DNA from: Saitoella complicata NRRL Y-17804
Lineage: Eukaryota; Ascomycota; Saitoellomycetes; Saitoellales; Saitoellaceae
Assembly (NCBI RefSeq): GCF_001661265.1
Contig: NW_017567011.1
Span: 1 to 64,000 of the forward strand
Direction: 5' to 3'
DNA: 64,000 nt
A program made the position numbers and the translations under genes. Under the pieces are notes generated by a model. That model had not been told where the DNA came from and did no database searches. It saw nothing but the letters and a program-made list of their open reading frames with translations. Shown piece after piece: positions 20,987 through 61,331 of this stretch; the first letter of the stretch is position 1, and each line of letters starts with the position of its first letter.

Positions 20987-23900
20987 TCACTTCAAATAAC
21001 ATGGAATGCCGTACACGACTGGCGCCGCTCCGTTCAAATACTTCAATGTACACTCATCCCTGGACAACGCCACCGCTCGCACCAAAGAAGTTTTCTCCTC
21101 CGCATCCGTCCTCTTGGAATGCTTCTTCGTCTCGTCCTCTTTCAGCAAACCCCATCTTTCGAGTACTTTAACACTGAAAAGGTCGATGTCTTTATCCGTA
21201 ACATCCCACAGATTGGCGACAAGCGTGGGACACCCGGCGATGACATAACTCAGCGCAGTTCCTGAAGGCTCGAAGTCACCAGCTTCTTTCAGTTCACCAC
21301 TGCTACAACCCATAAGTAAAGTAACGGCACATTTTTTCAGACGATTCAGGGCAGCTGATCGAAGGTACTGTTCGCCAGAGCCGTGTCCCATGTAAATAAA
21401 AATATCCGGAGATGTCAGCGCACGTCGGTACTCCTCTTCCATGGGTGTACGTCCGATGATTCCCGTCCATCCAGGAAGATTGGAAAACTTGTCAGCGAAG
21501 ACCTTCTGTGTGTTTACGAGGTCTCCTGAAGGGTTGAGAATGAAACTTCCACTTTCCTTGCGGACCACGACATCACCAGTCTGTCGGTCGCCATTGCAAG
21601 ATTCGTCGTCATCCGAATCTTCCTCTGGCCCAGAAAGACGCTGCAGTCGTTCGCGCAGAGCTGCCAAAGAGGGTAATCGCGAGACCGACTGACCTCGCAT
21701 GACTGGCAAAGACTCCCAAGGGAACATTTGCACTGACTTATCCAGGATCAGAATCAGGTGTGCCTCTTCGTGATCTTTCACCTTCCCGAGTGCTTCGTGA
21801 TATGAGCGAAGTGCTTCTTGGAGATCCACCACCATCTGGTCGATGTCGACTTCGTCGTAGGCGATGGGTTCGCCATGAAACTGGTAGATGTCGAGAACGA
21901 AATATATGATGTCTTCCAAAAGCTCCGCAGTTTTGTCCTCGTCATTTTCCACGTCACTTGCCGGCGGAGGGCCCAGCGCGATGAAGAGCTCTAGGAGGCG
22001 GGCGTCGATATCACCAACAGCCTTTGACTTCCGTCCGCGGCAGAAAGGAAGGTGTTTTGACATAATTTGCGCGAAGGATGCACGAAATCGGGCAAACAAC
22101 TTCGCATCGCTCTTGCGGTTGTTGAAAATGCCCTTGAACCCTCCCAGCCAACAGAGCTCGATGTTCTCCAACAACACCTTCAATCGTGCATCCAGAGCTA
22201 TACGCTCGTTCCACCAAGCCAACTTGGTTTCTCGATCTCTGATGTCCTTCGCTCTCTTCGTACTTGCGTTACTGGACGACAAGACATCCTTAAGCTCCTT
22301 GAGTGCTGTCTCGTACGAGAAGTCCATATCCTCGTCATCATTGCCAGCATGTCTGTTTAACGGAAGCCTCAGCACCAATGGAGCTTGCCCGGACTGAACA
22401 CTACCAATGTACAATTCCGTCAAGTCTTCGCTGAGCGTAACGGAAATCACCATCCAGTTGGATGGGATGATGTCGATGAAATCCTGCTGGAAGTGTGGAA
22501 CATCGCCGGGAGGAGGCCTTGTAGGAGTCCCATCCAGTGCGCGAGAGGAAGGAGCAGATGAGCGGAGCGGAGTAGTAGGGTCAACCGCAGCAAGCCTCAT
22601 GTGAGTTGGCCATCCCAGATCGAAGTCCTTCCCCCTTACGCTCTGCAACTGCTCACGTAATCTCTCTTCAGCTTCAAAGAACGCTCGTTCACGACCGAGT
22701 GTGATGCCTTTGGAACTGTCGAGGAAGTAATGCACAACACTCGGACGAGCCGGATGACCTTGAGAAGGCAAAGCGATCGCGTAATGGAGAACCATGATTG
22801 ACCCCAATAAGGACGACAACGCCTGCACGGTAGTAGCTGGACAGGTCTTGGTGGCGCTTTTGAACACCTCGACAAGGGCATCTCGAGACTTTGACAACAG
22901 TGAACCTATCTCAGACGGAGCCCCTAGTGATTTGCTCGCAGCAGTGCGACGACTCTTTGCAGGTGTCTTGGCGGCCTTGACCTTTGGTGATGACTTATCG
23001 CTTGTTGCGTGTTGAATGCTAGGCAACGAGATTGCGGCATCTTGAAGCACACAAAGTACGGGATCAGACCGCAGCAAATCTACAGCTTGCAGAAACATCA
23101 CCTTTGCTTCCGCCAGCCTTTGCAGCACGATGTCCTGGTCACCACCGGTCTGATGCAAGGCTTCTTGCAACTGCGTGTGTGCATCATCGAATTGCCCCTG
23201 TACCGCAAGCTTCAGACCTAGCGCGCGTAAGACTTCCGCCTTCATCTTAGAAAGCGTAGTGGATTCACTCATCAATGACGCGTCTTTGGCGGACCGCTTC
23301 TTTTTAGCAGGCGAGATCTGCATGTTGTTCATGGCACCCATGACAGCATCCAGCGGCTTCATCTCATCCATGCCCTGCACGAAACTCGAACTCATCAACT
23401 GCGTCAAGGTTTTGTCAGCAGCGAGGTAAGACGCGACCTGAGCATCCTCATTGCCCAGGCGGCCGTGGTAGCCGGCTATCGACATGGACAGCTGCACGCT
23501 CTCCTTCATGTTCTCCAGTTGGTGTCGCAAGTTGGACGCTTCCTCCAAGACCTGCTTAGCCATGTCGAGGTTTCCTGATCGCGCATGCAAGTCACCCAAA
23601 ACCGATAGGATACGTGCCACATCAACATTCGCATTGGCAAACCTAGCTGCTTCAAGAGCCACCTGGAAGTAATGTTGCGCTGCTTTGGGTGTTCCACGAT
23701 GGACGTACAGCTCGCCCATAAGTACATTGACGTTCAACCACGCACTCACAATCGGCCAATAAAACTGTGCCATCTGAGCATCCTCATCGAGATACCTCGA
23801 AGCGGATTTCGGCTTCTCCGACGCGTCCGACTTCGGCTCCGCAAAGGGATTATCCTCCATCGCATCCGAGGCCACAGTCTCAAGAAGTTTCTCCTTCCGC

Positions 23901-26900
23901 GACAACATCGCCGCATTTTTCAACGCCCTCTTCAATAACCTCATCGCATGATCCGCATGCAGCGTCGCCTCAACCGCACCCCCACTCTCAAACAATATTC
24001 TCGAAAGCGTATACGCCGCACTCGCAATCAAGTATATCCGCATCGTTTTTCTCTGCGCTTTGAGCTTTCCATGGACCCCCTCCTCAAGATCCGCCAGATT
24101 ATCGGCAAGAGCACCAGCGGCACGGTAATGCTCACGACTCTTATCCACGTTTCCTATGGAGACCAGGTATTCACAATACGCCAGTTCCCAGGCGATCATA
24201 GCCGACGCCGAGCACTTTGCTTCCTTCACGTACGACTGACTCTTAGCGAAGACCATCCCAGCTTTTCCGGTATACCCAACTCTGCAGTACTGCAATCCCA
24301 ACGCAGCACTCAACTCGACATAATCGCTCCTTGTTTCCGCAGTAGAAGCATTCTTCCGGATGTGTATCATGAGTTTCAAGACACTCAGCCGCTGAAACGG
24401 CAAAGACTTGAAACCACACAAATCTTTCAACATCCCCAGCTGCCCGAACAACGCTTCGGGATCTTCGACGTGCTCGGCGACGGTATCATGGATTTTCCTG
24501 GCTACAGCGTCCTCGGATGGAAGTAACGCATTCTTCCACACACGCAGAGCCGCGGTGAGACCTTCGACATCAGGTTCGTCTCGTAGATATCCAATCTGTA
24601 CGATCCAACCTTTCAGGGAGCCCAAGACGACCTGTGCATACCTTTTCAACCCCTCATCATCCCCCAACTCACCCTCCTCCAGCCTGTCAACAACCTTCCC
24701 CGCCACCGCAACGACATCAAACGGCACCGAAATCGGAACATCATCAGCGACGAACCGCAAGAGCTTACTCATCACCCTCCCCCTCCTAACCGGGCACTTC
24801 CCCACCTCATAACACTTCAACGCCTCATACGCCAACCCAACCGCATTTCTCATCATCCCCACATTCGTAACGGCAACACCACCACGATTAATAACCCTGA
24901 ACTGCCACTCCAACACCGCTCCTCTCATCCCCGTATCCAATTTATCCATCCCCGGCAACGCCAACGACGCGTCAGGAGAGATGTGAACGGAGATTTTGGT
25001 GGCTTCGCTAATGAAGCGGGCAAGCGTCTCCCTCTCCTTCCCACTCCACCCCTCAACCAACGCCACCCTCCCAAACACATCCCCATCCCCATCCCCCTCC
25101 ATCTCTCCCTTTCCCTCCCCTCTACCACCAACACCAGAGTCAAACAACATCCCCAACCCGTCCCACCTCGAAACCCTCGCCTCCTCCAAATTCCCAGCCG
25201 CATACAAACAATAACTCAACAACTCCAACTTCTTCGTCACCCTCCCCACATCCGTATCACCAACCACCCTCGCAACCTCGACGCTACTCCTCAGAAACGG
25301 GATCGCCTCTGCGCGTCTGTTGGCGTTGTGCAGTAGAACCGCAATATTGAAGAAGGTGTTCGAGAGGTACGTCCCTGTTGCTATTGGGAGAGTGGGAATG
25401 GTAGCGAGGGTCGTGCATCGCGTCAACATCTCATGCGCCTTGGTGTACGTCGTGGCATCCTCAACCTTAAACGCCGCCCGTGCAAGGGTGGACGCATACT
25501 CCAAAACCCACCCCCCAACCTTCCCAAACCACTCACCCCCACATCCTCCTTCCCCCACGTTCACCTCCCTATGCCTCTTCAAAAACTCGACCATTCCCCA
25601 CACCACTTCCCCCCACCTCGACGGCTGATCCTTCGTGTGACTTTTGGCAATCCGCGAACGTAAAAGTTCGATATTCTTCAACATCCTCTCCCACTCTTGC
25701 CCGCCCACCCCCTCCTCAACAACTTCATGCCTCAAAAACCCCTCCACAATCATCATCTTCTCCTCCACCCCCTCCACCCCCTCTCCACCCTTATCACCAC
25801 CACCACCACTCGATTCGAGCGCAAGACCAGCCTGATGCGCAGCCAACGCAATCCTTGTTGAGACACTTATCCCGGTCGTCCGACTCGCGCGCTCGGTCCA
25901 TATCTGTGCTTCCGAGACTTTGTTAGAGGAGCGTGCGATGAATGAGAGGGCTGCGCAGACTTCGACGCTTGGGGTCAACCCCAGCCCCCCGTCGTTACAC
26001 TCGAGGAGAGTTCCGAGGGCGCGGGTGATTGAGTCGTAGGGGGAGGTAGAGGCGCGCGTAAGGGCTTTTTCGAGGATGGCGTTGAGCATGGTCGAGTCTG
26101 GGTTCGGAAGGAGTAACGCAATCTCGATAGCGCGTGTGACGACTTCGACGCGATCCTCAGGCAACAACCCTCTCCCTTCGGCAATCCTAACAACAACACC
26201 CCACACCTGTCCCAACGCCTTGTCCCCCTGTCCCCCCTCCCCACTCCTCGCAAACTGCGCCCACGCAACGGGACCATGTGCATGACTAACCGATATCGCA
26301 GATGAAAGAGACGGCGTAAGTGACAACTTCGGAATCCGCGTAAGGAGACGGAGGGTGTTGAGTTGCGCGAGGAGGATGAGGGGGAGGATGGAGGGGGAGG
26401 GTGGGGTTAGTGGGGGGGGGAAGGGGTAGAGGAGGAGGGAGGCTGGGTCTGTTGTTGTTGTTGATGTTAATGGTATTGTTGTTGGGTCTTTGGTGGTTGT
26501 AGCGGTGGATTTGGTGGTGCTTGATCGGGATGTCGGGGTTTTGGTGCTCGTGGTGCGGGTTGAGCGGGTTGTTCGTGCGGGTGTTTTCGGTGCCGACGTG
26601 GTCTCCAGTACGGAGTCTGCCTCGTTCAGGTGTTCCAGTAAGTGTTTCTTCAGCACGAATAACTCTGACAGCGCTTCCTTGACCATATCCAGCTCGCGTA
26701 GCTTATTGATCAGGTTCGAGTGTAGTCTCTCTGCATCCAATGGCCCCCGTAGTGATGCCCGTTCCATTCGTAAGATGGGTAATGCCAGTTTAAATGCTTC
26801 GACGACGTATCCAACGCGTGCTGATTGTACCGAGTCGGGTTTCGCCGCGTCTCCCGAAGCTTTCCGCGCAGCGACGAGGTTCGTGAGCGTGGTCAAAGCC

Positions 26901-27136
26901 GTATTAGCTGTCTTTGCCGCCAACGCTATCCGCTCCCCCTTCTCAGTCATAGATACCGTAGACGCCCTCGCCGTCGACCGCGTACCCGACGCCGTCTTCT
27001 CCGGTACGAGCGCGTCCTTCAACACCTGTACCATCGCAGCCGAACACGTCTCCAACACCTCGAGCTGCTTAACGGCCTTACTTGCTGCCGCAGCAGACAT
27101 CGTCATTGTTGACGTCTTTGATGCTGCTACTGGCAT
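20987..27136 (-). CDS. ESP1: Separase (peptidase C50), about 2,049 aa
   Basis: Separase cleaves the Scc1/Rad21 cohesin subunit at anaphase onset. The single uninterrupted frame matches the size of filamentous-fungal BimB proteins. A long helical N-terminal region of TPR/superhelical type (many AEVLRALG-like segments) is followed by the C50 caspase-like domain in the last approximately 400 residues. The catalytic dyad is visible: His in IYMGHGSGEQY (codon 21383-21385) and Cys in LLMGCSSGELK (codon 21305-21307), about 25 residues apart as in the family, then SYVIAGCPTLVANLWDVTDKD. The start is taken at 27136 (MPVAASKTST); the frame stays open to 27268, but that ATG would overlap the divergent neighbour. 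A low-complexity Thr/Ser/Pro stretch lies near 26400-26600, a likely unstructured linker. Confidence 0.95.
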   Translation of the reverse strand: MPVAASKTSTMTMSAAAASKAVKQLEVLETCSAAMVQVLKDALVPEKTASGTRSTARASTVSMTEKGERIALAAKTANTALTTLTNLVAARKASGDAAKPDSVQSARVGYVVEAFKLALPILRMERASLRGPLDAERLHSNLINKLRELDMVKEALSELFVLKKHLLEHLNEADSVLETTSAPKTPARTTRSTRTTSTKTPTSRSSTTKSTATTTKDPTTIPLTSTTTTDPASLLLYPFPPPLTPPSPSILPLILLAQLNTLRLLTRIPKLSLTPSLSSAISVSHAHGPVAWAQFARSGEGGQGDKALGQVWGVVVRIAEGRGLLPEDRVEVVTRAIEIALLLPNPDSTMLNAILEKALTRASTSPYDSITRALGTLLECNDGGLGLTPSVEVCAALSFIARSSNKVSEAQIWTERASRTTGISVSTRIALAAHQAGLALESSGGGGDKGGEGVEGVEEKMMIVEGFLRHEVVEEGVGGQEWERMLKNIELLRSRIAKSHTKDQPSRWGEVVWGMVEFLKRHREVNVGEGGCGGEWFGKVGGWVLEYASTLARAAFKVEDATTYTKAHEMLTRCTTLATIPTLPIATGTYLSNTFFNIAVLLHNANRRAEAIPFLRSSVEVARVVGDTDVGRVTKKLELLSYCLYAAGNLEEARVSRWDGLGMLFDSGVGGRGEGKGEMEGDGDGDVFGRVALVEGWSGKERETLARFISEATKISVHISPDASLALPGMDKLDTGMRGAVLEWQFRVINRGGVAVTNVGMMRNAVGLAYEALKCYEVGKCPVRRGRVMSKLLRFVADDVPISVPFDVVAVAGKVVDRLEEGELGDDEGLKRYAQVVLGSLKGWIVQIGYLRDEPDVEGLTAALRVWKNALLPSEDAVARKIHDTVAEHVEDPEALFGQLGMLKDLCGFKSLPFQRLSVLKLMIHIRKNASTAETRSDYVELSAALGLQYCRVGYTGKAGMVFAKSQSYVKEAKCSASAMIAWELAYCEYLVSIGNVDKSREHYRAAGALADNLADLEEGVHGKLKAQRKTMRIYLIASAAYTLSRILFESGGAVEATLHADHAMRLLKRALKNAAMLSRKEKLLETVASDAMEDNPFAEPKSDASEKPKSASRYLDEDAQMAQFYWPIVSAWLNVNVLMGELYVHRGTPKAAQHYFQVALEAARFANANVDVARILSVLGDLHARSGNLDMAKQVLEEASNLRHQLENMKESVQLSMSIAGYHGRLGNEDAQVASYLAADKTLTQLMSSSFVQGMDEMKPLDAVMGAMNNMQISPAKKKRSAKDASLMSESTTLSKMKAEVLRALGLKLAVQGQFDDAHTQLQEALHQTGGDQDIVLQRLAEAKVMFLQAVDLLRSDPVLCVLQDAAISLPSIQHATSDKSSPKVKAAKTPAKSRRTAASKSLGAPSEIGSLLSKSRDALVEVFKSATKTCPATTVQALSSLLGSIMVLHYAIALPSQGHPARPSVVHYFLDSSKGITLGRERAFFEAEERLREQLQSVRGKDFDLGWPTHMRLAAVDPTTPLRSSAPSSRALDGTPTRPPPGDVPHFQQDFIDIIPSNWMVISVTLSEDLTELYIGSVQSGQAPLVLRLPLNRHAGNDDEDMDFSYETALKELKDVLSSSNASTKRAKDIRDRETKLAWWNERIALDARLKVLLENIELCWLGGFKGIFNNRKSDAKLFARFRASFAQIMSKHLPFCRGRKSKAVGDIDARLLELFIALGPPPASDVENDEDKTAELLEDIIYFVLDIYQFHGEPIAYDEVDIDQMVVDLQEALRSYHEALGKVKDHEEAHLILILDKSVQMFPWESLPVMRGQSVSRLPSLAALRERLQRLSGPEEDSDDDESCNGDRQTGDVVVRKESGSFILNPSGDLVNTQKVFADKFSNLPGWTGIIGRTPMEEEYRRALTSPDIFIYMGHGSGEQYLRSAALNRLKKCAVTLLMGCSSGELKEAGDFEPSGTALSYVIAGCPTLVANLWDVTDKDIDLFSVKVLERWGLLKEDETKKHSKRTDAEEKTSLVRAVALSRDECTLKYLNGAAPVVYGIPCYLK

Positions 27137-44194: not shown

Positions 44195-47100
44195 ATGCCG
44201 CTCCTCTCAAAAACCCTCCAAAAACTCCACCTCAAACACTCGCCCTCACCTTCTCAATCCTCGGGGACGCATTACGACGATTCATCCGACGACGATACGC
44301 CTGAGGGTAGCGCTTGGATCGGAGGCGGAAAGTCCAAACAGAAGCGCCTCGAGCGAAAGAGAGAGAAGAAAAGACAGGCACACCACCGCGCCCTCGACCT
44401 CCAGACCCGCCGTCAACGCGAAGACGCCCACGCCGCCAAAGTTGAGCCAGCATCAGTCCGCGCACTCTACGGTCGCCTCCCTTTCCCTGTGCCCGAAAAT
44501 GTTCCGGCGGCGCCCGTCCAGGAGTGGACCAGTGTTGGCGCGATCGAAGAGGGAGATGTGGGGGAGGGTGATGAGGTTACGTTTAGGGCGAGGGTGCATG
44601 CGAGACGGGTGTTGAATGGTAAGGGTTTGGTTTTCTTCGTGGTTAGGGAGGGGTTGGGGAGGGTTCAGGCGGTGTTGAAGGTTGAGAGGGAGGGGGGGGT
44701 GGAGCCGGTCAACGGTGTCGGTGGCTCTATTGGCTACGGAAACGGGGTCGAGGGGTTGGTGACATTGGCTGAACCAATCCCGCTCCCGCTCCCGCTCTCC
44801 GGTCACGCATTCGGCTCCGCAGTCCCGTCTAATCCTACCTCTATCACCGCCCCTACCCACCACTCCCCGCTGACCCCGCAGACTTCTTTGCCGACGTCCA
44901 CCACCAGCTCGGGCCTGAACACGAATACAACGCAAATGACACCCGCAGCCTCCACCTCCGGCTCAGGAGAAGCGAAACCCTCCCCCCACATGCTCTCCAC
45001 ACTATCCCATCTATCCCCCGAATCAATCGTCCTCATCACCGGCACTCTGCAAAAACCACCTCACGGCGACATGATCAAGTCTTGCACGATCCAACATTTG
45101 GAAGTCAAGGTGCGTGGGATGTGGGTGTTGGCCGAAGCCCGTGGTGTACCCGTCCGCGTTCGGGATCTCGAGCGTCCTCGGAAGGGAGCGCCCGGTGAGG
45201 AAGAAGTGCCGTTACGCACCAGAATGGCAAACCGCGTCTTAGACCTGCGTACACCCTCTTCCCTGGCAATCTTCCGCATCCAAAGCGGTATCTGCAACCT
45301 CTTCCGCACTCACCTAACCTCCCTCTCCTTCACTGAAATCCACACCCCAAAACTCCAACACTCCGCAACCGAATCCGGTGCCTCGGTTTTCTCCGTCCCT
45401 TACTTTGGGCGTCGCGCATTCCTCGCACAATCCCCACAATTGGCGAAACAAATGAGTATCAGTGCGGGGATGGGAAGAGTTTTTGAAGTTGGACCTGTGT
45501 TTCGGGCGGAGGAGTCGAATACGAGACGGCATTTGACGGAGTATGTTGGGTTGGATTTGGAGATGGAGGTGAGGGGGGGGTATGAAGAGATGCTCGGGGT
45601 TGTGGATGGGGTGTTTAAGAAAGTCTTTGCTGGTGTATACGAGAAGTTTGCACGGGAGGTCGAGGTTGTAAGAGAGGTTTTTGGGGGTGAAAGACTGGTG
45701 TGGGCTGAGGAGACTGTTGTCTTACCGTTCCGCGAGGGCGTGCGGATGTTGAATGAGAGTGGGTGGCGGGATGAGTCGGGGAAGGAGTTATCCGACAAAG
45801 AGGATTTAGGAACGAGAGATGAGATTAGGTTGGGGGCGTTAGTCAAAGAACGCTACGGTACGGATTACTTCGTCCTCGACAAATTCCCGAAAGCAGTACG
45901 GCCGTTTTACACGATGCCCGATCCCGAAAACGGCGAGTACACAAACTCCTTCGACATCTTTCTGCGCGGACAGGAGATCCTCACCGGAGGCCAACGAATC
46001 CATGATCCGGATATGTTGGAGGAAGCAATGCGCGCCAACCGGATTCGTCCCGATTCGATGCGAGAGTATCTTGATGCGTTTCGGTGGGGTGTTGCGCCGC
46101 ATGCGGGGGCGGGGATCGGGTTGGAGAGGTTGGTGATGTTGTTTCTGGGGTTGGGGAATATTCGCTATGCGTCGCTTTTTCCGCGGGATCCGAAGAGTTT
46201 GCAGGAGGTTGGGCGGGGAGGGGGGTTGAGGTATCCCGAGGTGAGTACGGTTGAGCCGCCGTGGGAGGCGAACCCGGAGAAGGAGGAGGGGGAGGAGAAG
46301 TTTGGGGCGATGCCGTTGGAGAAGTTGATTGGAAATTATGGGGATGCATCGAATACTTCCTGGCTCGAACCCAGATTCGAGGTATGGCGACACCAACGCT
46401 CCGGCGCCGCGGTCGGGTTCGTCGAGGTCGAGGGACATGCGATGGTTGTGGGTAACCCACTCTGCGATGAACGACAATACGGGGAAGTCATCGGCGCTTT
46501 CCTGACATGGTTGGGAAGGGATGGGAGGGCGTTGAAGCCGATTTGGTTACTTGTTTCCAAAGAGGTCGAGGAGATTTTGGGGGGTAGGGGGGGGTGGAGG
46601 ACATTGAGTTGTGTTGCGGAGGAGAGGGTGAAGGATCCGGCTGAGAATGTGAATAAGATTAAGGAAGGGGAGGTTGGGAGGAAGTTGAGGCATGCGAAGC
46701 AAGCTGGGATTAAAATCACCGATTTGCCTGCTGGAGAGCCGGTACCGGAGGAGTGGAGGAAGAGGTGTGATCAGCGGATTCAGGATTGGATCGATAATCG
46801 GAAGGGGAAGAAACAGGTTCATTTGACGGACGTACATCCATGGCAGGATATGGAGCATCGGAGGTATTTCGTTGCGGAGACGGCGGAGGGGGAGATTTGT
46901 GCCATGGTCGTTCTTGCCGAATTGAGTTTGAAGTATGGGTACCAAGTCAAGTGGTCTCTCGACTTCCCTGGTGCACCGAGCGGTGCAATCGAGTACATCA
47001 CCCTCCACGCCCTCACCGAAGCCTCATCCTCCGGCGCAAGGTCCGTAACGTTCGGCGCAACCGCGACGAATCATTTCGTCGTCGGTTCGAACCTCAGTGG

Positions 47101-47299
47101 ACTCCGTGCCAAGTTTCTGAGTAAGACTTATCATGGGATCGCGACGCAGTTTAATTTGGCGGGGAAGGGTGAGTTTAGGGCAAAGTTGGGGGCGGAGGAG
47201 GATCCGTTGTGGGTTTGTTATCCGAAGCATGGGATGGGGCCGGGTGGGGTAAAGGCTGTGATGAAGTTTGTTGGGGGGGAGGAGCATTTGGATGGATGA
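44195..47299 (+). CDS. erdS: Ergosteryl-3beta-O-L-aspartate synthase (AspRS-DUF2156 fusion), 1,034 aa
   Basis: ErdS charges tRNA-Asp and then moves the aspartate onto the 3-OH of ergosterol at membranes; the fungal enzyme is an aspartyl-tRNA synthetase fused to a DUF2156 (GNAT-type transferase) domain. Residues 20-75 are Lys/Arg-rich, as in eukaryotic AspRS extensions. An OB-fold follows, with a low-complexity insert near 200-265. Class II motif 2 is FRAEESNTRRHLTEY (about residue 435) and motif 3 is GAGIGLERLVMLFLG (about 636). The DUF2156 half begins at about 700 (FEVWRHQRSGAAVGFVEVEG) and contains LRHAKQAGIKITDLPAG, VHPWQDMEHRRYFVAE and SGAIEYITLHALTEA, ending near GPGGVKAVMKFV. One exon. 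This is not the housekeeping AspRS, which should be encoded elsewhere. Confidence 0.92.
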   Translation: MPLLSKTLQKLHLKHSPSPSQSSGTHYDDSSDDDTPEGSAWIGGGKSKQKRLERKREKKRQAHHRALDLQTRRQREDAHAAKVEPASVRALYGRLPFPVPENVPAAPVQEWTSVGAIEEGDVGEGDEVTFRARVHARRVLNGKGLVFFVVREGLGRVQAVLKVEREGGVEPVNGVGGSIGYGNGVEGLVTLAEPIPLPLPLSGHAFGSAVPSNPTSITAPTHHSPLTPQTSLPTSTTSSGLNTNTTQMTPAASTSGSGEAKPSPHMLSTLSHLSPESIVLITGTLQKPPHGDMIKSCTIQHLEVKVRGMWVLAEARGVPVRVRDLERPRKGAPGEEEVPLRTRMANRVLDLRTPSSLAIFRIQSGICNLFRTHLTSLSFTEIHTPKLQHSATESGASVFSVPYFGRRAFLAQSPQLAKQMSISAGMGRVFEVGPVFRAEESNTRRHLTEYVGLDLEMEVRGGYEEMLGVVDGVFKKVFAGVYEKFAREVEVVREVFGGERLVWAEETVVLPFREGVRMLNESGWRDESGKELSDKEDLGTRDEIRLGALVKERYGTDYFVLDKFPKAVRPFYTMPDPENGEYTNSFDIFLRGQEILTGGQRIHDPDMLEEAMRANRIRPDSMREYLDAFRWGVAPHAGAGIGLERLVMLFLGLGNIRYASLFPRDPKSLQEVGRGGGLRYPEVSTVEPPWEANPEKEEGEEKFGAMPLEKLIGNYGDASNTSWLEPRFEVWRHQRSGAAVGFVEVEGHAMVVGNPLCDERQYGEVIGAFLTWLGRDGRALKPIWLLVSKEVEEILGGRGGWRTLSCVAEERVKDPAENVNKIKEGEVGRKLRHAKQAGIKITDLPAGEPVPEEWRKRCDQRIQDWIDNRKGKKQVHLTDVHPWQDMEHRRYFVAETAEGEICAMVVLAELSLKYGYQVKWSLDFPGAPSGAIEYITLHALTEASSSGARSVTFGATATNHFVVGSNLSGLRAKFLSKTYHGIATQFNLAGKGEFRAKLGAEEDPLWVCYPKHGMGPGGVKAVMKFVGGEEHLDG

Positions 47300-48053: not shown

Positions 48054-48057
48054 TGAT

Positions 48058-48129
48058 TCCCCCGGCCGGATTTGAACCAGCGATCACCCCCTTACTAGGG
48101 GGGCATCATAACCACTAGACCACGGGGGA
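48058..48129 (-). tRNA. tRNA-Thr (AGT)
   Basis: 72-nt cloverleaf: acceptor TCCCCCG/CGGGGGA, A-box TGGTCTAGTGG, anticodon stem CCCCC/GGGGG with loop CTAGTAA giving anticodon AGT, and B-box GGTTCAAATCC. No intron. A T-run follows. It ends one base before a spurious upstream extension of the permease frame, which argues for the inner start of that gene. Confidence 0.93.
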
Positions 48130-50292: not shown

Positions 50293-51429
50293 CTATGCCA
50301 ACCTCAGAACATACTTCCGAGGCAACCTCGACGCAGCAATGGCATTCCATGTAGAATGAAGTTCCGAACGCTCCTTCTCGGCTTGTACAACGGCGTAGTA
50401 CTCCCTCGCGGCCCGGACGATGTTGATATCGATATCCTTGAGCTGCGCATACTCCTCCGCCGCCTTGGTATTATGATGATAACTAACGATATGTTCCACA
50501 ACAGCGTCGTCACTCGTCGATGCCTTCCAAGCGCATGACGGCATGGGACACACGTACCCGAGCCTGCTGTAGTGATGGTCATTGCTCTGAACATGGTTCC
50601 TCAGAGATTCGTCCTTTTGGAAATACTTCACACATCCTGGCTCCGGACACGGTGTCCTCGTGTCGCTGTACGCCTTGTGCGCATTCCGAGCATGTCCCAG
50701 AAATCCCTGGACTGTTCGGAACTTCTTCTTGCAACGGTCAATTTTGCAAAGGAAGTGTTCCTCGCCTTCGATTTCGGATTCAGGTACTCTGTAGGTGTCG
50801 ATTTGTCGTTCGAGGTATCTTTTGACTTTGTAATACTTAATACAGGAATAGGAAGGCAAGTTCGCGAGTTTCCACAGTTCCTCCTCAACCTCCATCTTTG
50901 AAGGCATCCCAGCCAGAAAAGCAACGGGACGAGGCCCTCCATATTTGGCGACAAGTTCAGCAAGATTCTGTCGCAGTTTCCTGATCTTGAGGAGCATGCG
51001 AAACTGTGCGTCCGGGTCGGCGACATAGGGGTGTTTTTGGCTCGGACGCGTTTTGGTTTGCCAGGAGGAATGAGAGGCGGTAGTCATACAATTCATCCAG
51101 TGCCCACCCAATACATATTTCCCATATCTAAACCTAGGCATTTCCAAAACCGTTCGCTCCCACTGGCTTTCGGGCATCTTGGGTTCCAGAAGAGCCTCTT
51201 CATACGGCGTCTGCTCCATCTTCTTGTTAGGAATCCTGATAGGAGGCATGCTGGCAAATGATGGTCGTGGTTGCGATTGACGTTGGTGGATGGCGATACT
51301 CCCGCAGTTCTTGAAGGCTTCTTCAGGAAACTTTCGCCACAACGGGTCCATGGTGGGACAGATTACAAGGGTGGACCCATGTCGATTCATTTCGCACAGG
51401 CGGTCCGAGCGGGAACGTCTCCGAAGCAA
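50293..51429 (-). CDS. Triple C2H2-type zinc-finger protein, 378 aa
   Basis: Three widely spaced fingers in the last third: residues 228-251 (CKIDRCKKKFRTV...HARNAH), 261-286 (CPEPGCVKYFQKDESLRNHV, then HH) and 294-319 (CPMPSCAWKASTSD...HIVSYHH). Upstream is a helical region (MLLKIRKLRQNLAELVAKYG) and no other known domain. The fingers are not of the tight tandem DNA-reading kind, so RNA, DNA or protein binding are all possible. The true start may be MDPLWRKFPEEAF, 26 residues in. Confidence 0.7.
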   Translation of the reverse strand: MLRRRSRSDRLCEMNRHGSTLVICPTMDPLWRKFPEEAFKNCGSIAIHQRQSQPRPSFASMPPIRIPNKKMEQTPYEEALLEPKMPESQWERTVLEMPRFRYGKYVLGGHWMNCMTTASHSSWQTKTRPSQKHPYVADPDAQFRMLLKIRKLRQNLAELVAKYGGPRPVAFLAGMPSKMEVEEELWKLANLPSYSCIKYYKVKRYLERQIDTYRVPESEIEGEEHFLCKIDRCKKKFRTVQGFLGHARNAHKAYSDTRTPCPEPGCVKYFQKDESLRNHVQSNDHHYSRLGYVCPMPSCAWKASTSDDAVVEHIVSYHHNTKAAEEYAQLKDIDINIVRAAREYYAVVQAEKERSELHSTWNAIAASRLPRKYVLRLA

Positions 51430-51769
51430 TTGCGATGAGATGTGGGAGGCTCATTCGCCAAAGCAGGCGCTGCTTTCAATTCATTAGGTCGGAGATGTTA
51501 TGGGCCATGCGTAGCTTTCTTGCTGATACGGGCTGCTCTCTGTGAATCTGCGAACCGTTGGGGTTTCGTTCACTGTCGTAGAGTGCACCCGGACATCACG
51601 CCGACAACCTCCTCTTTTCTCCACGTCGAGCAGCAATTACAATTGTGGAAGGACAGGGTTGTATTATACTGATCTGAGATTAATTCTGCCATGTTTGCAG
51701 GTGCTGAACCATTATGCTAACTTACGTATATAGTTCCTCCCACGCCTCCTCCGCTATCACACGCTCTCC
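51430..51769. other. Intergenic, 340 bp
   Basis: Lies between two minus-strand genes, so it holds the 3' flank of the NADH dehydrogenase gene and the promoter of the zinc-finger gene. Nothing distinctive seen. Confidence 0.4.
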
Positions 51770-54700
51770 TCAAAACCTAGTGATATCCCTCCCAAAGACA
51801 AAGTTCAACAACCAATACGTAGGAATCAAAATCTTGTTCCTCAAACTTACACTCATCGACAAGTACGCAGTCCTCCACAATATCCACGCAGCACGACCCG
51901 AAAGCCCACCAGACTTCGCAGGCTGGACGATGGCTTTCCAACCGCCGATGTAAGCCATCGCTCCACGGTTGAGGAACTTGAACGGTTCAGGTTCGTAAGA
52001 GGGTGTACCGGAACGAGCGATGGCGTTGAGGGAGTTGCCGAGGTAGATGGCTTTCTGGTTGGCGACTTGTGCGGTGGCAGGAAGGATCTCGCCATCCTTA
52101 ATCGCAGCGCAATCGCCAATAGCGTAGACACCATCAACAGGCTGGCCCTTCTCGTCGACGACACGGAGGCGGCCGTCAGTTAGGACACTGCCGGTCCTCT
52201 TGTCCTTGAGCACGCCCTTCATCTCCTCGACGAGGGGGTTGGCGTGGAGTCCAGTCGCCCAGACCATCATTCCGAACCTCTCCATACCACTCTCCTTGGT
52301 GTAGACCTTGCCCTCCTCAATCTTCGTCACATGAGTTCCAGTCCTGATCCGAATCCCACTTCTAGCAAACTTCGCCCTCGCATACTCTCCCAAGTTCTCG
52401 TCAAAACTTCCAAGGATCCTTGGGGCAACGTCGAACAAGGAGATGCTTGCCAGATGATACAGCTCGGGGTAAAGCAAGGCCAAATCATCATGAATCAGAT
52501 CATGGAGCTCAGCGGCGAACTCAACACCAGTAGGCCCACCACCCACGCAAACGAAGTGGAGAAGCTGCCTCCTCTCCTCCTCGGTGGTAGAGGGGCACGC
52601 AGCCAACTCGAAGCAATGCAAGATTCTCGCACGAATCCTCCTCGCATCACCAACATCCTTCAAGAAATATGCATGCTCCTTCACCCCCGGCGTTCCAAAA
52701 GTCTGACTGTACGCACCGACAGCAATGACAAGATCATCATACTCAACCTCAAACTTCCTCCTCCCATCCTTCATGCGTCCATTGATAGACATCTCGCCAG
52801 GACACTCGTCCTCAGCAGCACTCCTATCCAATGTAGTCTCCTCCTTCACCGGAGTAAACTGCGTCACACACTCAACCTTCTTCCTCGCGAAATCAATATT
52901 ATCCGCAAAGGCCTCGATCAAGTTCACACCCTCGCCCTTCTTACTCATCCACCGGAAAATACCACGGTAACGAGACCTCACGGGCTCCATCGCACAACGG
53001 AACTCCAAGGTCCCGACAGCAGTGGATGCGAGGAGAGGAGTAAAGACAAAGTACGTGCGAGGAGAGATGACGGTAACCTGGTGATACTTGGTTGATACCT
53101 GGTTGAGGAGCTTATACCCGCCCCACCCAGAACCAAGAATAACGAGGTGCTTCCTCCCGTTCTTTTCCCTCGGCTTGACGACGGCACCAGTTGTCGGAGC
53201 AGCGGCGGCCTGCACCGCCAGTGAAGCGTGGTATTCACGACGGCTCAAGATGCTCTTCTCTCCCTCAAACGAAGGCCTACAGCCACTGGTGCTGAAACTT
53301 CTCGTCTGAGACCTCAGCTTACCCTTTGTCAGGGCAGCCAAAGTCGCCGGCGAAACATTCACGACCGTCTCATGGGAAACGGTTGAGACATGATCAGCTT
53401 CCGTGATAGGAGCCACTGAACCCTCGGGGAGGTGCGAGTTAACGAGGGGTTTCTCAAAGTCCAAGGGTTCATCCTGAATCTCGTGACGGCGAACAGGACT
53501 GGAGTGGAACTCCCTCCTCCCCGATGGGACCTTCCCCGCCTGTCCCTTTGCACCACCAGACCCGAAACTCATAAACGGCACCTCAAAAGCATCAACCTCC
53601 GTAATCTGACTAACACTCCCCTCCGGCAACACCGTCTCCACCATCACCCTATCAAAATCCAAAACACCCTCCACCTCCCTCTCCTGCTCCCCCCTCCTCC
53701 CACTCAAAGTCCCAAACCCCCTCCGCCCCAACGTCATAACACCCGGCTTAGAAGAAGCCGCGCCATTTAACCCGCTCACTCTCGGCGCAAAACGAGTGAG
53801 CGAAGGAAAACCCTCCTCGGATTCGGTAATGGTCGATACCGTGCCTTCGGGGAGTTGGTGGTTAACCAACGGGGCATCAAAGTCTAGGACATCGTCCTTC
53901 AACTTGCCCGAACGCACGGTCCGAGAAGAGTGGAACGCCCTTCGTCCACTCGGAATTTTGGCGGAGGTTGTGGACGAGCCTGCGGAAGGTGTGGCAGGAT
54001 GGAAGTCTGTTTCCGTGATAGTAGAGACCGTTCCCTCAGGAAGCTGGTGGTTGACGAGGGGGGTGTCGAAATCCAGTAACTCGTCCAACTTGTCCGAACG
54101 CAGAAACCGAGTCGTGTGAAACTGTCTGCGTCCAGTCGGAACCTTAGCTGAACCCCCGGTGGAGGCAGCGGGGGTAGGAGCAGATGGCGACGCAATAGAG
54201 GATGTGAAATCCGCCTCAGTGATAGTAGAGACCGTGCCCTCGGGCAGTTGATGATTAACCAACGGCCTCTTGAAATCCAACACATCATCCACCATCTCCG
54301 ACCTCACAACCCTAGTCGTGTGAAACCCCCTTCGTCCACTCGGCACCTTCGCACCCTGAACCTCACCGGTTCTCGGCGCGCCCATAGGTTTAGCGAATTC
54401 GAAAACATCAGCCTCAGAGATGGTGGATACCATCCCATCGGGAAGTTGGTGGTTGACAAGTGGACTATCGAAATCCGAAACCTCTTCCACCTCCCTCGCT
54501 CTTGTGTGAAGCCCTCTTCGTCCACTCGGCCCCCACGCCCCCTCACTCAACCTCCCCTCCCCCGGCCTGAGCCTCGCAACAAGTACAGGCTCATCCCACG
54601 CCTGATCATAATCCGTGCTTGTCGGATTCACTGTGGTGTCGGGGCTTTTTGCGTGGAGGTGTGGTTTGTCAAAATCAATGTATTCCTCTCCGTCTTTCAC

Positions 54701-55066
54701 CTCAACTGTGGTTTTCGTCGAGGAGAGGTGGGGAGGGGAGGAGGTGGAGTGGAGGTGTCGGCGTTGGGAGAAGATTGTGGATCGGAGTTGGTGCTGGAGG
54801 GGTTCGGACATACTCGTTCTCTGCTTACACACCAGCGTCCCATTCGAATCATGACTCTCCCCAACAACGGGGGCCGTGCCATCCAAGGAAGCGTAGTTTG
54901 GTGCGGAGATGGTGTCGTCGGAGCGGTCGGAGCCGGTGGAGATGAGGGGTTTGTCGAAGTCGAGTTTGAGGTTGGTGATGGTGCGTTTTGAGAGCGTCAG
55001 GCTCGAGGAGGGGAGGGTAATATGGAGACGGGGGAGGGTGCGGCTTGTTCGGAGGAGTGCTGACAT
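51770..55066 (-). CDS. Type II NADH:ubiquinone oxidoreductase with a 635-residue repeated N-terminal extension, 1,098 aa
   Basis: The last approximately 460 residues are a complete rotenone-insensitive NADH dehydrogenase (NDE/NDI type): FAD motif HLVILGSGWGGYKLL at about 640, NADH motif VCVGGGPTGVEFAAEL at about 838, AIGDCA near 982, LPATAQVANQKAIYLG, and a C-terminal YWLLNFVFGRDITRF. The ordinary enzyme is about 500-580 residues with a short presequence. Here a true-looking presequence (MSALLRTSRTLPRLHI) is followed by about eight units of a peptide with core (L)DFD-P(L)VNHQLPEGTVSTIT, beginning at residues 35, 130, 197, 263, 331, 394, 469 and 535. Between units lie (K)(V/I)PSGRR-FH(S/T)(S/T)R elements at about 181, 243, 311, 373 and 515, plus weaker ones at 101, 447, 588 and 608. 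These look like fungal matrix-processing sites. One exon, with no frame break across the repeats. The extension is probably removed during import; whether its pieces are functional is unknown. Confidence 0.85.
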   Translation of the reverse strand: MSALLRTSRTLPRLHITLPSSSLTLSKRTITNLKLDFDKPLISTGSDRSDDTISAPNYASLDGTAPVVGESHDSNGTLVCKQRTSMSEPLQHQLRSTIFSQRRHLHSTSSPPHLSSTKTTVEVKDGEEYIDFDKPHLHAKSPDTTVNPTSTDYDQAWDEPVLVARLRPGEGRLSEGAWGPSGRRGLHTRAREVEEVSDFDSPLVNHQLPDGMVSTISEADVFEFAKPMGAPRTGEVQGAKVPSGRRGFHTTRVVRSEMVDDVLDFKRPLVNHQLPEGTVSTITEADFTSSIASPSAPTPAASTGGSAKVPTGRRQFHTTRFLRSDKLDELLDFDTPLVNHQLPEGTVSTITETDFHPATPSAGSSTTSAKIPSGRRAFHSSRTVRSGKLKDDVLDFDAPLVNHQLPEGTVSTITESEEGFPSLTRFAPRVSGLNGAASSKPGVMTLGRRGFGTLSGRRGEQEREVEGVLDFDRVMVETVLPEGSVSQITEVDAFEVPFMSFGSGGAKGQAGKVPSGRREFHSSPVRRHEIQDEPLDFEKPLVNSHLPEGSVAPITEADHVSTVSHETVVNVSPATLAALTKGKLRSQTRSFSTSGCRPSFEGEKSILSRREYHASLAVQAAAAPTTGAVVKPREKNGRKHLVILGSGWGGYKLLNQVSTKYHQVTVISPRTYFVFTPLLASTAVGTLEFRCAMEPVRSRYRGIFRWMSKKGEGVNLIEAFADNIDFARKKVECVTQFTPVKEETTLDRSAAEDECPGEMSINGRMKDGRRKFEVEYDDLVIAVGAYSQTFGTPGVKEHAYFLKDVGDARRIRARILHCFELAACPSTTEEERRQLLHFVCVGGGPTGVEFAAELHDLIHDDLALLYPELYHLASISLFDVAPRILGSFDENLGEYARAKFARSGIRIRTGTHVTKIEEGKVYTKESGMERFGMMVWATGLHANPLVEEMKGVLKDKRTGSVLTDGRLRVVDEKGQPVDGVYAIGDCAAIKDGEILPATAQVANQKAIYLGNSLNAIARSGTPSYEPEPFKFLNRGAMAYIGGWKAIVQPAKSGGLSGRAAWILWRTAYLSMSVSLRNKILIPTYWLLNFVFGRDITRF
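53387..54478 (-). repeat. Coding tandem repeat in the NADH dehydrogenase extension
   Basis: Six well-kept units of about 62-75 codons (residues 197-560) plus two worn ones upstream. The peptide core is better conserved than the Ser/Pro/Gly linkers, and linker lengths vary, so selection rather than very recent amplification is likely to hold the core. Confidence 0.8.
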
Positions 55067-55552
55067 GGTAACCGTGGGGGTGTATGCTGTCGAATAGGTG
55101 GAAAAAAGGTCAATTGAAGGTCGCGGAAGGGATGTATGCTGTATGTATGCTGGTTGACCGAGGCCGTGTTCCCCTTCTCGTGTCGTTCTACGCGTACAGC
55201 TCGACCGTGAGAGTAACTTTCCACGACGTTCGCAACTGTCTTCCTCGTACGCGTACGCGCTGTTGTCGACTCCAACTGCTCTGACTATATGCTGCTCTCC
55301 TTATACCCTCCGCCTAGAATGCCGGCTTCGAGTCATCCCCATCAATCCGAAGCACACCAATTACCAGCGCTTCCGAGATTGCATCAGCGCGCTGCGTTGG
55401 GTCCGCTGTGCCGGATAGGCGATAAGGGGTTACCGGAGTCGGGTTAGTGCGCATGTGTGGGGGTGGACCAATCGATAGGCGAGGCCGTGACACCCCACGC
55501 AAAAGGTGAAGCAGGTGTGCCTTGACCCTGTAAATCAACAGGAAAAACCCAC
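55067..55552. other. Intergenic
   Basis: Upstream flank of the NADH dehydrogenase gene and downstream flank of the tRNA gene. No supported coding frame. Confidence 0.4.
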
Positions 55553-55558
55553 AAAAAA
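55553..55558 (-). terminator. Pol III T-run after tRNA-Asn
   Basis: Six T in transcript sense, one base beyond the tRNA 3' end. Confidence 0.7.
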
Positions 55559-55559
55559 C

Positions 55560-55632
55560 GGTCTCGGTGAGGCTTGAACTCACAACCTCTCGATTAACAG
55601 TCGAACGCGCTAGCCAATTGCGCCACGAAACC
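55560..55632 (-). tRNA. tRNA-Asn (GTT)
   Basis: 73-nt cloverleaf: acceptor GGTTTCG/CGAGACC, A-box TGGCGCAATTGG, anticodon loop CTGTTAA giving GTT, and B-box AGTTCAAGCCT. No intron. Confidence 0.93.
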
Positions 55633-55829
55633 ATTCGATGAGGAAAATATCACCCATGTCAATCATATCCCATTACCAAAATCTCCCGTATTCAGGCTGT
55701 CTACGTTACATGCGACCCCCGACATCATAACATAACAAACGGCAATCATCAAACAGCACTGCCCAATACCGACGGAACCACAGCATTGCGCACTCACCCA
55801 AGGCTCTATCGAAAGTCCGAGGTTAACCC

Positions 55830-58513
55830 ATGCCCCTCGCTGACCCCCGCGGCTGGCGACGTCCACTCCCAACCACAACAACCCACCACCCACCCCCCAC
55901 CGGCGACGAAACCTTCCTCACAGAAGCAACCCGCGATGCCACCATCCGCATCAGCGACCTCCGTCTCGGCAAACTACTGGGAAGAGGGCGGAGCAGTGAG
56001 GTGTATGAAGCGTGGTGGAGGGATACAGGGGAGAGGGTTGCGGTCAAGATGGTATGTCGCCGTTGCCTGCGTTGGTGTTTGGATGTGGAGGGCTGTGCTA
56101 ATGGAGTGGGGATTAGATAGCAAAGTCGAAACTCACGACACTCCCCGCCCGCCGCGACCTCGCCAAACGCGTCGAGCTCCACCACGAATTATCCACCCAC
56201 CCACATATTCTTCCACTCCACTACTCCTTCGAAGACGCGCAGAACGTCTACCTCATCCTCGACCACGCACCCGAAACCCTCGCCTCGACATCTTCCTCCT
56301 CCACCACGCTGGATATCAGCGTAATCCTCCGACACCTCGCTGAAGTTTTGGCGTATATGCACGAACAAGGCCACGTACACGGCTACTTGTGCGCCGAGAA
56401 TGTAGCTCTCGTCAATGGTGATGTCCGGGTACGCCTCCGCGGAATCAGCAAAACACCAACACCCGGTACGGTGGAGGACGATGTAGAAGCGTTGGGGAGG
56501 TTGGGGTGGTGGATGTATATGGGACCTGGTCGACGGGGGTGTGTCAACCACGGCGATGCAGGGTTGCTGGAGAGGTTGTTGGAACGGATGTCGAACAACA
56601 CGACGGTTAAGGGGATGTCGGCGAGGGATGTATTGAGGGATGAGTATTTCGTGCAGAAGGCGGCGCCGGTGAAGGAGACGGTGGTGATTGGTGATGAGAG
56701 GAGGAGAAAACCGACGATTTTGTCGAGTCAGTATTCGCCGCTGAGTTTGGCGTCGTCGGTCGGGAGTGGAGTCAAACGAACAACCTATGTGGAAGAACCG
56801 CATGTCAAACTCCCGCAAGCCCGTGGACGGTTCGGTGGGGTGTCGAAAAAGCACGAGGAGGTGTCTGAGCAGATACTGCCTACACCAAAGTTACCGCCGT
56901 TACCGACGGCGCTGAATCGGTCGCGTGCGGGGACGGTGAGGGGGTTGGCGGAGGATCGGATACGGGCTTGGATGCGGGAGGAGGAAGATGGTGGTGAGGA
57001 TGTGTCAGAGTTGGGGAATGACTACGGGAAGGATGCACCTCTGCGTAGTAGACGGCACCAGGACGACGAGGATGAGGACGAGGATTTCTATCCTCCGTTA
57101 CGCGCATCCAGATATGACGCTCCACGTCCTCGTCCCGTGGTACGAGAAGACTTCCCATCACCGCCTCAACAAGCACCGTACGACGACGCGTTTACCTCAC
57201 CACCCACAGCCCCACCCAGCAAAACCGCAATGGAAATCCTCTTCCCAAAAGCCCGACCCCTTCCACCCTCCGCAATGAAAGCCAAACCAACACAATCCTT
57301 CCCCTTCGGCTCATCACCACCTGAAACATTCCCCACTAACGCTGCGCGACGATCTGTATTGAATGAGTTACGACAGGCGGAAGAGAATGCGAGGAGGAGA
57401 GAGAGGCCGAGGGTTGGGTTTGTCAGGGAGGAGTTGAAGGCGAGTAGTGGAAGTCGCGATTCGGCATTAGGGTTGAGCACGTTTATGCCGGTACAGTCCA
57501 GCGCTGCAGCTGCATTCTCTAACGAGATCATCACACCAAGACCACGAGCCAGAAGAGCTGCAGTTCAGTCTACGAGGTTTTTACCGCATACGACACCACT
57601 GCGGACGCTCTTTGCCTCGGCGAGCGCTGCGCTCACAAAGGTCGTCTCGCCGAAGAGTGAGTTCGCAACAAAATACCGATTCCAGACAACGGGTTTAAAG
57701 GGGTTCAAACAACACACAAAACACGGCCTCGTTGAAATCCTCGGGAACGACAAAGGCGTCATCCTCGACCTCCTCACGGATCCGGAAAATACGGTACACA
57801 TCGACGCCTCAGGTACGCAAGTCTCCATCATCCCTCGTCATGGAGGCGGAATGGTCAGGTATGTCCTTGATGATTTACCCCTGAGGTATCTACCCGTGTA
57901 CCGCTACGCTAGCCGCTTCGTCGGTATCGTGAGGTCGAAGAGCGTCAAGCTTGCTTTGGAGATGCCGAGGGGTCGGGGTAGACTCTTCCTGAATGGTGAT
58001 TTTGAGGGGAAGATAAGGAGGAAGAGTGGGGAGGTTGTATATGTTCGAATCTTGGAGGGGAAAGACGTTGTGGTTGAGGATGCAGAGGATAGGGTGATGT
58101 GGAAAGGAAGCGTTGATGGGAGCGTACCAACGAAGTGGAGGGATTATCTTGATACTGTGAAGAGTTGGTGGAGGAAGAGTAAGGAAATGCAGGAGGAAGA
58201 GGAACCTGAGTCCGACGAAGAAGATGACGGTGATGAAGATACTGGTGAAGAGCGCGACATGGATGCTGCGGATTCTACTGCGCGATTCGTGGATGGAATT
58301 GGGTGGTGCGCCAAACTTGGAAGGAAGTGGAGTATGTTGTTCGAGGATGGAGTACGGATAGATATCACGCCGCCAGGTCGAGGAGGTGAAGACACGAAGG
58401 TTTTGGTGGTCGATGGTGGTGTTAGGAGGGAGTCGGTGGTGAAGAGCGGGCTAGAGTTGCCGGAGTGTGTTAGGGAGCGGTTGGGCAGGTTTGATGGGTT
58501 GGTTATGGTATGA
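55830..58513 (+). CDS. PLK4/SAK-like pseudokinase with three polo boxes, about 872 aa
   Basis: Exon 1 (55830-56051) and exon 2 (56117-58513) join at phase 0 over a 65-nt intron. PLK4 drives centriole duplication in animals and flagellate fungi. The N-lobe looks normal: LLGRGRSSEVYEAWW (about 49-63), VAVKM with Lys73, and FEDAQNVYLILDHA. The catalytic loop reads HVHGYLCAEN (about 160-169) where HRDLxxxN is expected, and the DFG position reads RGI (about 182-184), so phosphotransfer is unlikely. A disordered linker of about 300 residues follows. The C-terminus has the PLK4-type cryptic polo box (about 590-760), with YRYASRFVGIVRSKSVKL matching PLK4's YASRFVQLVRSK, then a third polo box from FVDGIGWCAKLGRKWSMLFE (about 799) to the end. 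It is probably a scaffold at the spindle pole body, by inference from the boxes. Confidence 0.82.
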
Positions 58514-61243: not shown

Positions 61244-61331
61244 TCCCTCGAACCGGAGTCGAGCCGGTGACCTTCGCTTGACGATGTTACCATTACAGAG
61301 CGACGTGATGAACCAACTACACCATCGAGGG
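61244..61331 (-). tRNA. tRNA-Tyr (GTA) with a 13-nt intron
   Basis: Acceptor CCCTCGA/TCGAGGG starts with C1-G72, as eukaryotic tRNA-Tyr requires. The anticodon stem is TCGCT/AGCGA; the loop CTGTAA gives GTA and is followed by an insert TGGTAACATCGTC one base after the anticodon, the standard intron site. T-arm ACCGG/CCGGT. T-rich sequence follows. Confidence 0.88.

Follow-up and report, generated by a model that had tools for sequence, protein, structure and literature searches.

Six conserved peptide repeats ahead of a type II NADH dehydrogenase in Saitoella complicata: a candidate multiply cut mitochondrial precursor

Introduction

Why should a mitochondrial-type NADH dehydrogenase be preceded, within one open reading frame, by hundreds of residues that carry the same short peptide again and again? 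The question is raised by a gene of Saitoella complicata NRRL Y-17804, a Taphrinomycotina yeast isolated from soil and a member of the same subphylum as S. pombe. The window that we analysed is the whole stretch of 64,000 nucleotides (RefSeq assembly GCF_001661265.1, contig NW_017567011.1, positions 1 to 64,000; GC 53.1%), and the gene lies on its minus strand at 51770-55066. A 20-base primer published for S. complicata (PMC6605012) has one exact match in this genome, and its reversed control has none. A first-pass annotation of this DNA proposed a polyprotein from which import into mitochondria might release several copies of a peptide together with a type II NADH dehydrogenase (NDH-2). We find an array of six repeated units joined to an enzyme homologous to yeast Ndi1, four separators that nearly match a site proven to be cut by the mitochondrial processing peptidase (MPP), and purifying selection on the core of the repeat. 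A multiply cut mitochondrial precursor is in our view the best explanation of the gene, with a probability of roughly 60%.

Results

The frame runs from 55066 to 51770 and is open for 1098 codons from ATG to stop. Its start ATG stands in the context TTACCATGTCA, and the nearest in-frame stop 5' of it is 237 nucleotides upstream. By its sequence the C-terminal part is a type II NADH dehydrogenase with the two-Rossmann FAD/NADH-binding fold and the NDH2 C-terminal domain: Pfam places Pyr_redox_2 at residues 640-1005 (4.6e-42) and NDH2_C at residues 1034-1094 (5.7e-13), and yeast Ndi1 (4g6g) aligns to residues 621-1095 (E 7.4e-60). These matches and the uninterrupted codons bear out the earlier claim of a single unbroken frame joining the array to a full NDH-2. 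The enzyme is complete in appearance from about residue 612-620, and everything N-terminal of there is extra. A full-length single-sequence structure model carries no weight, as it failed for the enzyme too (mean 31.9). The features of the frame are listed below in order of translation, with slashes at candidate cuts.

51770..55066, minus: whole open frame of 1098 residues, repeat array plus NDH-2
54965..55066, minus: presequence-like N-terminal segment, residues 1-34
54896..54961, minus: vestigial unit A, residues 36-57, retains DFDKPL only
54743..54763, minus: site B, residues 102-108, RRH/LHST
54611..54676, minus: vestigial unit B, residues 131-152, retains DFDKP only
54494..54529, minus: unit 1 separator, residues 180-191, PSGRRG/LHTRAR, a weaker site
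54410..54475, minus: unit 1 core, residues 198-219
54308..54343, minus: unit 2 separator, residues 242-253, PSGRRG/FHTTRV
54212..54277, minus: unit 2 core, residues 264-285
54104..54139, minus: unit 3 separator, residues 310-321, PTGRRQ/FHTTRF
54008..54073, minus: unit 3 core, residues 332-353
53918..53953, minus: unit 4 separator, residues 372-383, PSGRRA/FHSSRT
53819..53884, minus: unit 4 core, residues 395-416
53699..53734, minus: unit 5 separator, residues 445-456, TLGRRG/FGTLSG, a weaker site
53594..53659, minus: unit 5 core, residues 470-491, the most diverged of the six
53492..53527, minus: unit 6 separator, residues 514-525, PSGRRE/FHSSPV
53396..53461, minus: unit 6 core, residues 536-557
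53273..53308, minus: site at residue 589 (residues 587-598), TRS/FSTSGCRP/S, FST at P1'-P3'
53210..53242, minus: last site, residues 609-619, RRE/YHASLAVQ, predicted to free the enzyme
51773..53209, minus: predicted mature type II NADH dehydrogenase, residues 620-1098

Every unit follows the same plan, in which a separator and a short charged spacer lead to a 22-residue core with a consensus near DFDxPLVNHQLPEGTVSTITE(x), which is followed by a linker of variable length. GRR precedes each of the six units, four of the six separators take the form P-[ST]-G-R-R-x-F-H-[ST]-[ST], and LVNHQLPEGTVSTIT is exact in three cores (units 2, 3 and 4). The positions invariant across all six are the G, R and R of the separator, one more Arg, and D, F, V, L, P, G, V, I and E of the core; the linkers have zero invariant columns. 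The first-pass count of about eight copies comes down to six clear ones, since the other two, at residues 36 and 131, are vestigial, keep DFDKP only and are without conservation of the kind seen in cores 1-6. An assembly artefact or a recent tandem duplication is ruled out by the distance between the cores given below and by Tandem Repeats Finder, which detects no array. With 0 rows for 51000-56000, this program's result argues that the repeats are old and against an artefact of assembly.

Across the 15 pairs formed by the cores of units 1-6, 18-35 of 66 bases differ and 11-20 of 22 residues agree. Neutral simulations, in which each core pair was given as many random base changes as are observed in it, over 2000 runs, matched the observed residue retention in 0 of 2000 runs for 13 of the 15 pairs (which are not independent of each other), in 1 run for pair 1-5 and in 25 runs for pair 3-6. 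Because those 13 pairs exceed all 2000 simulations, we conclude that the core is under purifying selection. The most extreme pair, units 3 and 4, retains 20 of 22 residues through 20 base changes and stands alone as evidence. In each of the 15 pairs the synonymous divergence (dS) of the cores exceeds 1 or has reached saturation, and nonsynonymous divergence (dN) is 0.06-0.61. The cores are thus neither recent copies nor recently homogenised, but kept. When the separators were simulated over the same 15 pairs, units 1-4 each paired with unit 6 clearly beat the neutral expectation (0-1 of 2000), a weak excess was seen for pairs 2-5 and 3-5 (56 and 50 of 2000), and the remaining nine pairs showed none.

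In the separator DNA of units 1-4 (53918-54529, minus strand), synonymous sites have changed less than those of the adjoining cores. For these units dS is 0.32-0.85 over 12 separator codons, against 2.35 or saturation in the cores, and over the opening eight codons of these separators just 2-6 of 24 bases differ. Gene conversion over small tracts, or a constraint on these separators as DNA or RNA, is possible. Rare-codon pauses at the separators were considered and set aside: with a codon table compiled over 15 further long frames in the window there was no clear trend, separators scoring 0.74-0.93 and cores 0.80-0.88.

The separators were described in the first pass as PSGRR-FHSSR-type elements. 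Four of them do come close in sequence to a proven MPP site, and the group is better described by an Arg at P2 with FHT, FHS or FST at P1'-P3', in many cases accompanied by an octapeptide of the Oct1 type. The proven site is RGGGRRAFHT, a minimal internal site that yeast MPP cut fully in E. coli, that functions as an internal linker and of which a double copy was selected for use in yeast mitochondria (PMC10450427). The same paper cites FHT or FST, from earlier work, as the best P1'-P3' for MPP, reports that short glycine-linked sites required Arg, not Lys, at -3, and used as its non-cleavable control a site with Ala for the -2 and -3 Arg (RR-to-AA) (PMC10450427). Units 2, 3, 4 and 6 read KVPSGRRG/FHTT, KVPTGRRQ/FHTT, KIPSGRRA/FHSS and KVPSGRRE/FHSS; over P4-P3' the first three each differ from RGGGRRAFHT at one position and unit 6 differs at two. 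Further upstream, Lys at -8 in the separators takes the place of Arg at -7 in the engineered site. The site at residue 589 carries RS/FST.

Residues 1-640 contain RRx[FLIY]H 7 times, whereas 2000 shuffles give a mean of 0.024 and never more than 2. For the looser Rx[FLIY]xx[STG] the count is likewise 7 (shuffle mean 2.1; reached by 9 of 2000 shuffles), or 6 times if Tyr is left out (reached by 38 of 2000). In the 14.1-Mb genome (14,122,262 bases, 34 contigs) a DNA pattern for G-R-R-x-F-H followed by two WSN codons, which encode Ser and Thr but also Cys, Trp and Arg, has 4 matches, and all 4 fall in this gene. The reversed control also gives 4, so the pattern matters for its concentration in one gene and not as a genome-wide excess. 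For the shorter pattern of RRxFH and one WSN codon, no other place has more than two within 1 kb among the matches listed.

At the other end of the array, residues 1-23 are amphipathic, with a net charge of +3 per 18 residues and zero acidic residues on a crude hydrophobic-moment score. A hydrophobic core of the kind found in secretory signal peptides is absent from the N-terminus in a crude scan, because the highest 19-residue hydropathy within residues 1-640 (0.88) sits at residue 612.

Oct1 acts at an R-10 type motif, R-x-[FLI]-x-x-[STG], to which we added Tyr. In this form the motif is present at seven of the nine candidate sites, where removal of an octapeptide would expose Ser or Ala in five cases and His in two. 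Products were predicted by cutting after R-x at the nine sites and then removing an octapeptide. From residue 113 this would give a product of 73 residues with a vestigial core; from residues 194, 256, 324, 386, 459 and 528, products of 54-65 residues with one core apiece; from residue 599, a short piece of 13 residues; and from residue 620, an enzyme of 479 residues. The predicted new N-termini are, in order, H, E, S, S, S, G, H, S and A. The genome has three M3-peptidase matches, two of them full-length: one on C8, which has a presequence-like start and which we take to resemble Oct1, and another with a weak TOP_N match.

What the core itself might be was approached by searches and by modelling. 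In its own genome, at E up to 10, the core was found nowhere outside this gene, which holds 6 of the 6 matches, a lower bound as introns were not modelled. In the genome_contigs collection, which is not fungal, 23 pattern matches left 0 confirmed, in the viral_contigs collection 36 left 0, and among plasmids there were none; absence from these sets says little because they are prokaryotic, viral or plasmid. Neither residues 1-640 nor residues 178-575 reach the cut-off of any Pfam family (best DUF7601, 20.1 bits vs cut-off 27), and residues 1-640 match no NCBIfam family. The best PDB profile match of the core is RcaE (E 0.013), presumably at a strand-turn-strand segment of its GAF domain; we put this match down to chance, even if it suggests that a hairpin could arise when the core binds. 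A folded repeat domain was rejected, as AlphaFold2 run on units 3-4 with a five-row alignment returned a mean predicted local distance difference test score (pLDDT) of 53.5 and no secondary structure. The most economical reading is that the core would be a disordered short binding motif.

Two further NDH-2 genes are present in the genome, on C4 and C8, and no array was seen in either frame. Both have ordinary presequence-like starts, followed by a hydrophobic stretch in the C4 frame, and the C8 frame has an EF-hand-like insert. The window enzyme, at 34% identity to the C4 paralog, is by these alignments a divergent NDH-2 paralog, and as no hydrophobic segment precedes it, it would face the matrix. 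Loss of complex I as a context was rejected on the presence of the 49-kDa subunit, the one subunit searched; the window enzyme is therefore probably not the sole entry point for matrix NADH.

Splicing was scanned for with a simple consensus (donor GT[AG]NG[ACT], branch CTRAY, first YAG within 30 nucleotides). Three candidate introns lie within the array; they share an end at coding nucleotide 1761 and have donors at 1149, 1287 and 1363, the first two of which keep the frame.

Among the neighbouring genes, 44195-47299 (plus strand) fuses a class II aminoacyl-tRNA synthetase (tRNA-synt_2) to a phosphatidylglycerol-lysyltransferase-like domain; we take it to be the fungal ErdS-type fusion of aspartyl-tRNA synthetase and DUF2156, which aminoacylates ergosterol. 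The frame at 56357-58513 (plus) has a weak Plk4 polo-box match (25.3 bits vs cut-off 26.4) preceded by a kinase-like segment with HGYLCAEN in place of the expected HRDLKPEN, and is possibly a degenerate Plk4/polo-like kinase. A single 2049-codon frame at 20987-27136 (minus) matches separase (Peptidase_C50) and TPR, and the gene next to the array frame, at 50293-51390 (minus), has a sub-threshold zf-C2H2_aberr match (25.7 bits vs cut-off 27). Three tRNA genes were called:

48057..48129, minus: tRNA-Thr
55558..55633, minus: tRNA-Asn
61244..61331, minus: tRNA-Tyr

The tRNA-Tyr gene (88 nucleotides, perhaps intron-bearing) was called by ARAGORN and not by Rfam at gathering score.

Discussion

From the layout described above we infer import, each of the cuts, trimming, survival of the peptides and any function that they have, and the proposal is as follows. 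The N-terminal presequence would take the 1098-residue precursor into the matrix, where MPP would cut at the presequence and at most of the internal G-R-R-x/F-H-[TS] elements, and Oct1 would probably trim eight residues at several of the sites so cut. One product would be a mature Ndi1-like NADH dehydrogenase of about 479-487 residues. The others would be some six disordered peptides, 54-65 residues long after trimming and roughly neutral or mildly acidic, in each of which the core DFDxPLVNHQLPEGTVSTITE would occur once. This core would have a binding partner in the matrix or the inner membrane, and the array would set the ratio of peptide to enzyme. The polyprotein proposed in the first pass gains from the near-optimal MPP sites and from selection on the core.

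Several observations weigh against this proposal. Two of the separators depart from an MPP site, namely those of unit 1 (LHT in an acidic neighbourhood) and unit 5 (FGT), which are the poorest of the set. No positively charged amphipathic helix stands ahead of the internal sites, residues 1-23 alone passing the crude hydrophobic-moment score. The loose motif Rx[FLIY]xx[STG] is by itself just moderately unusual, and the genome as a whole is not enriched in related patterns: RRxFH with one WSN codon has 98 matches vs 124 for the reversed pattern, and RRxFH with two WSN codons and an Arg-type codon has 6 (3 of them in this gene) vs 9. RRxFH-type sites elsewhere, at nine loci in eight places, do not show this element to be the usual presequence site of the fungus, because just one is within 10 residues of a Met start, and that one in a frame of 43 residues. 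Residue conservation in the separators of units 1-4 is no test of selection, because only 2-6 of 24 bases differ. The C4 paralog scores 369 bits to Ndi1 vs 206 bits for the window enzyme, and it is because of this divergence that we do no more than infer the matrix side. The candidate introns, if used, would excise stretches within units 4-6 and in no case the array as a whole. Finally, small peptides in the matrix may simply be degraded.

This last point leads to a reading in which the array is a leader that acts ahead of import or in the course of it, its cores binding cytosolic chaperones, TOM receptors or mtHsp70, after which the processed array is degraded and its peptides have no function. 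We think this unlikely, even if it would also explain the conservation of the cores, and the lack of predicted structure in units 3-4 (mean pLDDT 53.5) fits it. Presequences can, moreover, carry chaperone-binding and degradation signals (PMC12895284). However, such a leader needs no near-optimal MPP site before its cores, and the conserved letters NHQLPEGTVSTIT look to us more specific than a generic chaperone site. A leader that is merely disposable fits less well, because the cores show purifying selection, which it would not need.

Less likely again is an uncut fused repeat protein, which would lose its first presequence alone and keep the array joined to the enzyme, where it would serve as a disordered multivalent tether. 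Multivalent binders typically carry short conserved motifs in disordered linkers, and the weak sites at units 1 and 5 and the lack of internal amphipathic helices on the crude score would both be natural in a tether. It leaves unexplained, though, why four separators should be one or two residues, over P4-P3', from a proven internal MPP site and why the GRRxFH element should be concentrated in this gene.

It is very improbable that translation of the enzyme mostly begins at a downstream ATG or uses a shortened or spliced mRNA, with the array rarely translated. Met 86 and later Met residues are in frame, and there are the three intron candidates in units 4-6, two of them frame-keeping, but none would remove the whole array, and the 1098-codon open frame and the selection on the cores suggest that the array is translated often enough for selection to act. 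A secreted repeat protein with its RR pairs cut by Kex2 is scarcely credible, since despite the dibasic RR ahead of all six units and the wide occurrence of Kex2-processed repeat proteins in fungi (PMC6339444, PMC7329392), the amphipathic N-terminus is rich in Arg and, in the crude hydropathy scan, lacks a hydrophobic core, and the cargo is a mitochondrial-type enzyme.

Returning to the multiply cut precursor, a bolder form of it, which we offer tentatively and would not rate as probable, would make the gene product the mitochondrial equivalent of a pheromone-type precursor. In a single import event an NADH dehydrogenase would then arrive with a fixed multiple of a conserved peptide excised by the import peptidase, and this peptide would be a stable regulator of the enzyme or of another respiratory complex, or an exported retrograde signal. 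If multiple cutting is true, MPP, usually a remover of address labels and the internal cutter of a few fused enzymes, would also mature a multi-copy peptide precursor inside mitochondria; nature would then offer its own case of the polyprotein strategy that engineers constructed around a nearly identical site, and the gene would indicate a conserved mitochondrial peptide, so far undescribed, with a tie to NADH oxidation. Internal MPP cuts are already known. Among the titles listed in the open-licence literature, none is on a multi-copy peptide array cut by MPP or on an NDH-2 of this kind, which is no proof of novelty, and a term search of PMC6339444, on Kex2 repeat proteins, found neither Saitoella nor any word beginning mitochondri-.

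Known systems share parts of this arrangement. The precedent named in the first pass, yeast Arg5,6, is confirmed by a review as cut internally by MPP (PMC8847149), as is a rice ribosomal protein S14 fusion (PMC10450427), and internal MPP cuts have been proposed from in-silico motifs for Atp25 and for S. pombe Etp1 and Rsm22-Cox11 (PMC8847149). These composite precursors are likewise targeted to the matrix and would yield two or more products through cuts at MPP-type sites in their interior; they hold two different proteins, whereas the Saitoella gene has six near-copies of a short disordered peptide before one enzyme. Yeast Ndi1 and other NDH-2 enzymes align with the catalytic domain over its length, and the Saitoella protein has about 600 extra N-terminal residues. 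Kex2 repeat proteins and precursors of the alpha-factor type also combine a conserved peptide in many copies with protease sites and variable spacers, but they use the secretory pathway and Kex2, in contrast to the mitochondrial import predicted here. Nearest in their separators are the engineered polyproteins built on the S10 site (RGGGRRAFHT), which have GRR-x-FH[TS] separators and N-terminal targeting as in Saitoella (PMC10450427); unlike them, the Saitoella array is natural, has KxP[ST] before its GRR and carries repeated conserved peptides as its cargo.

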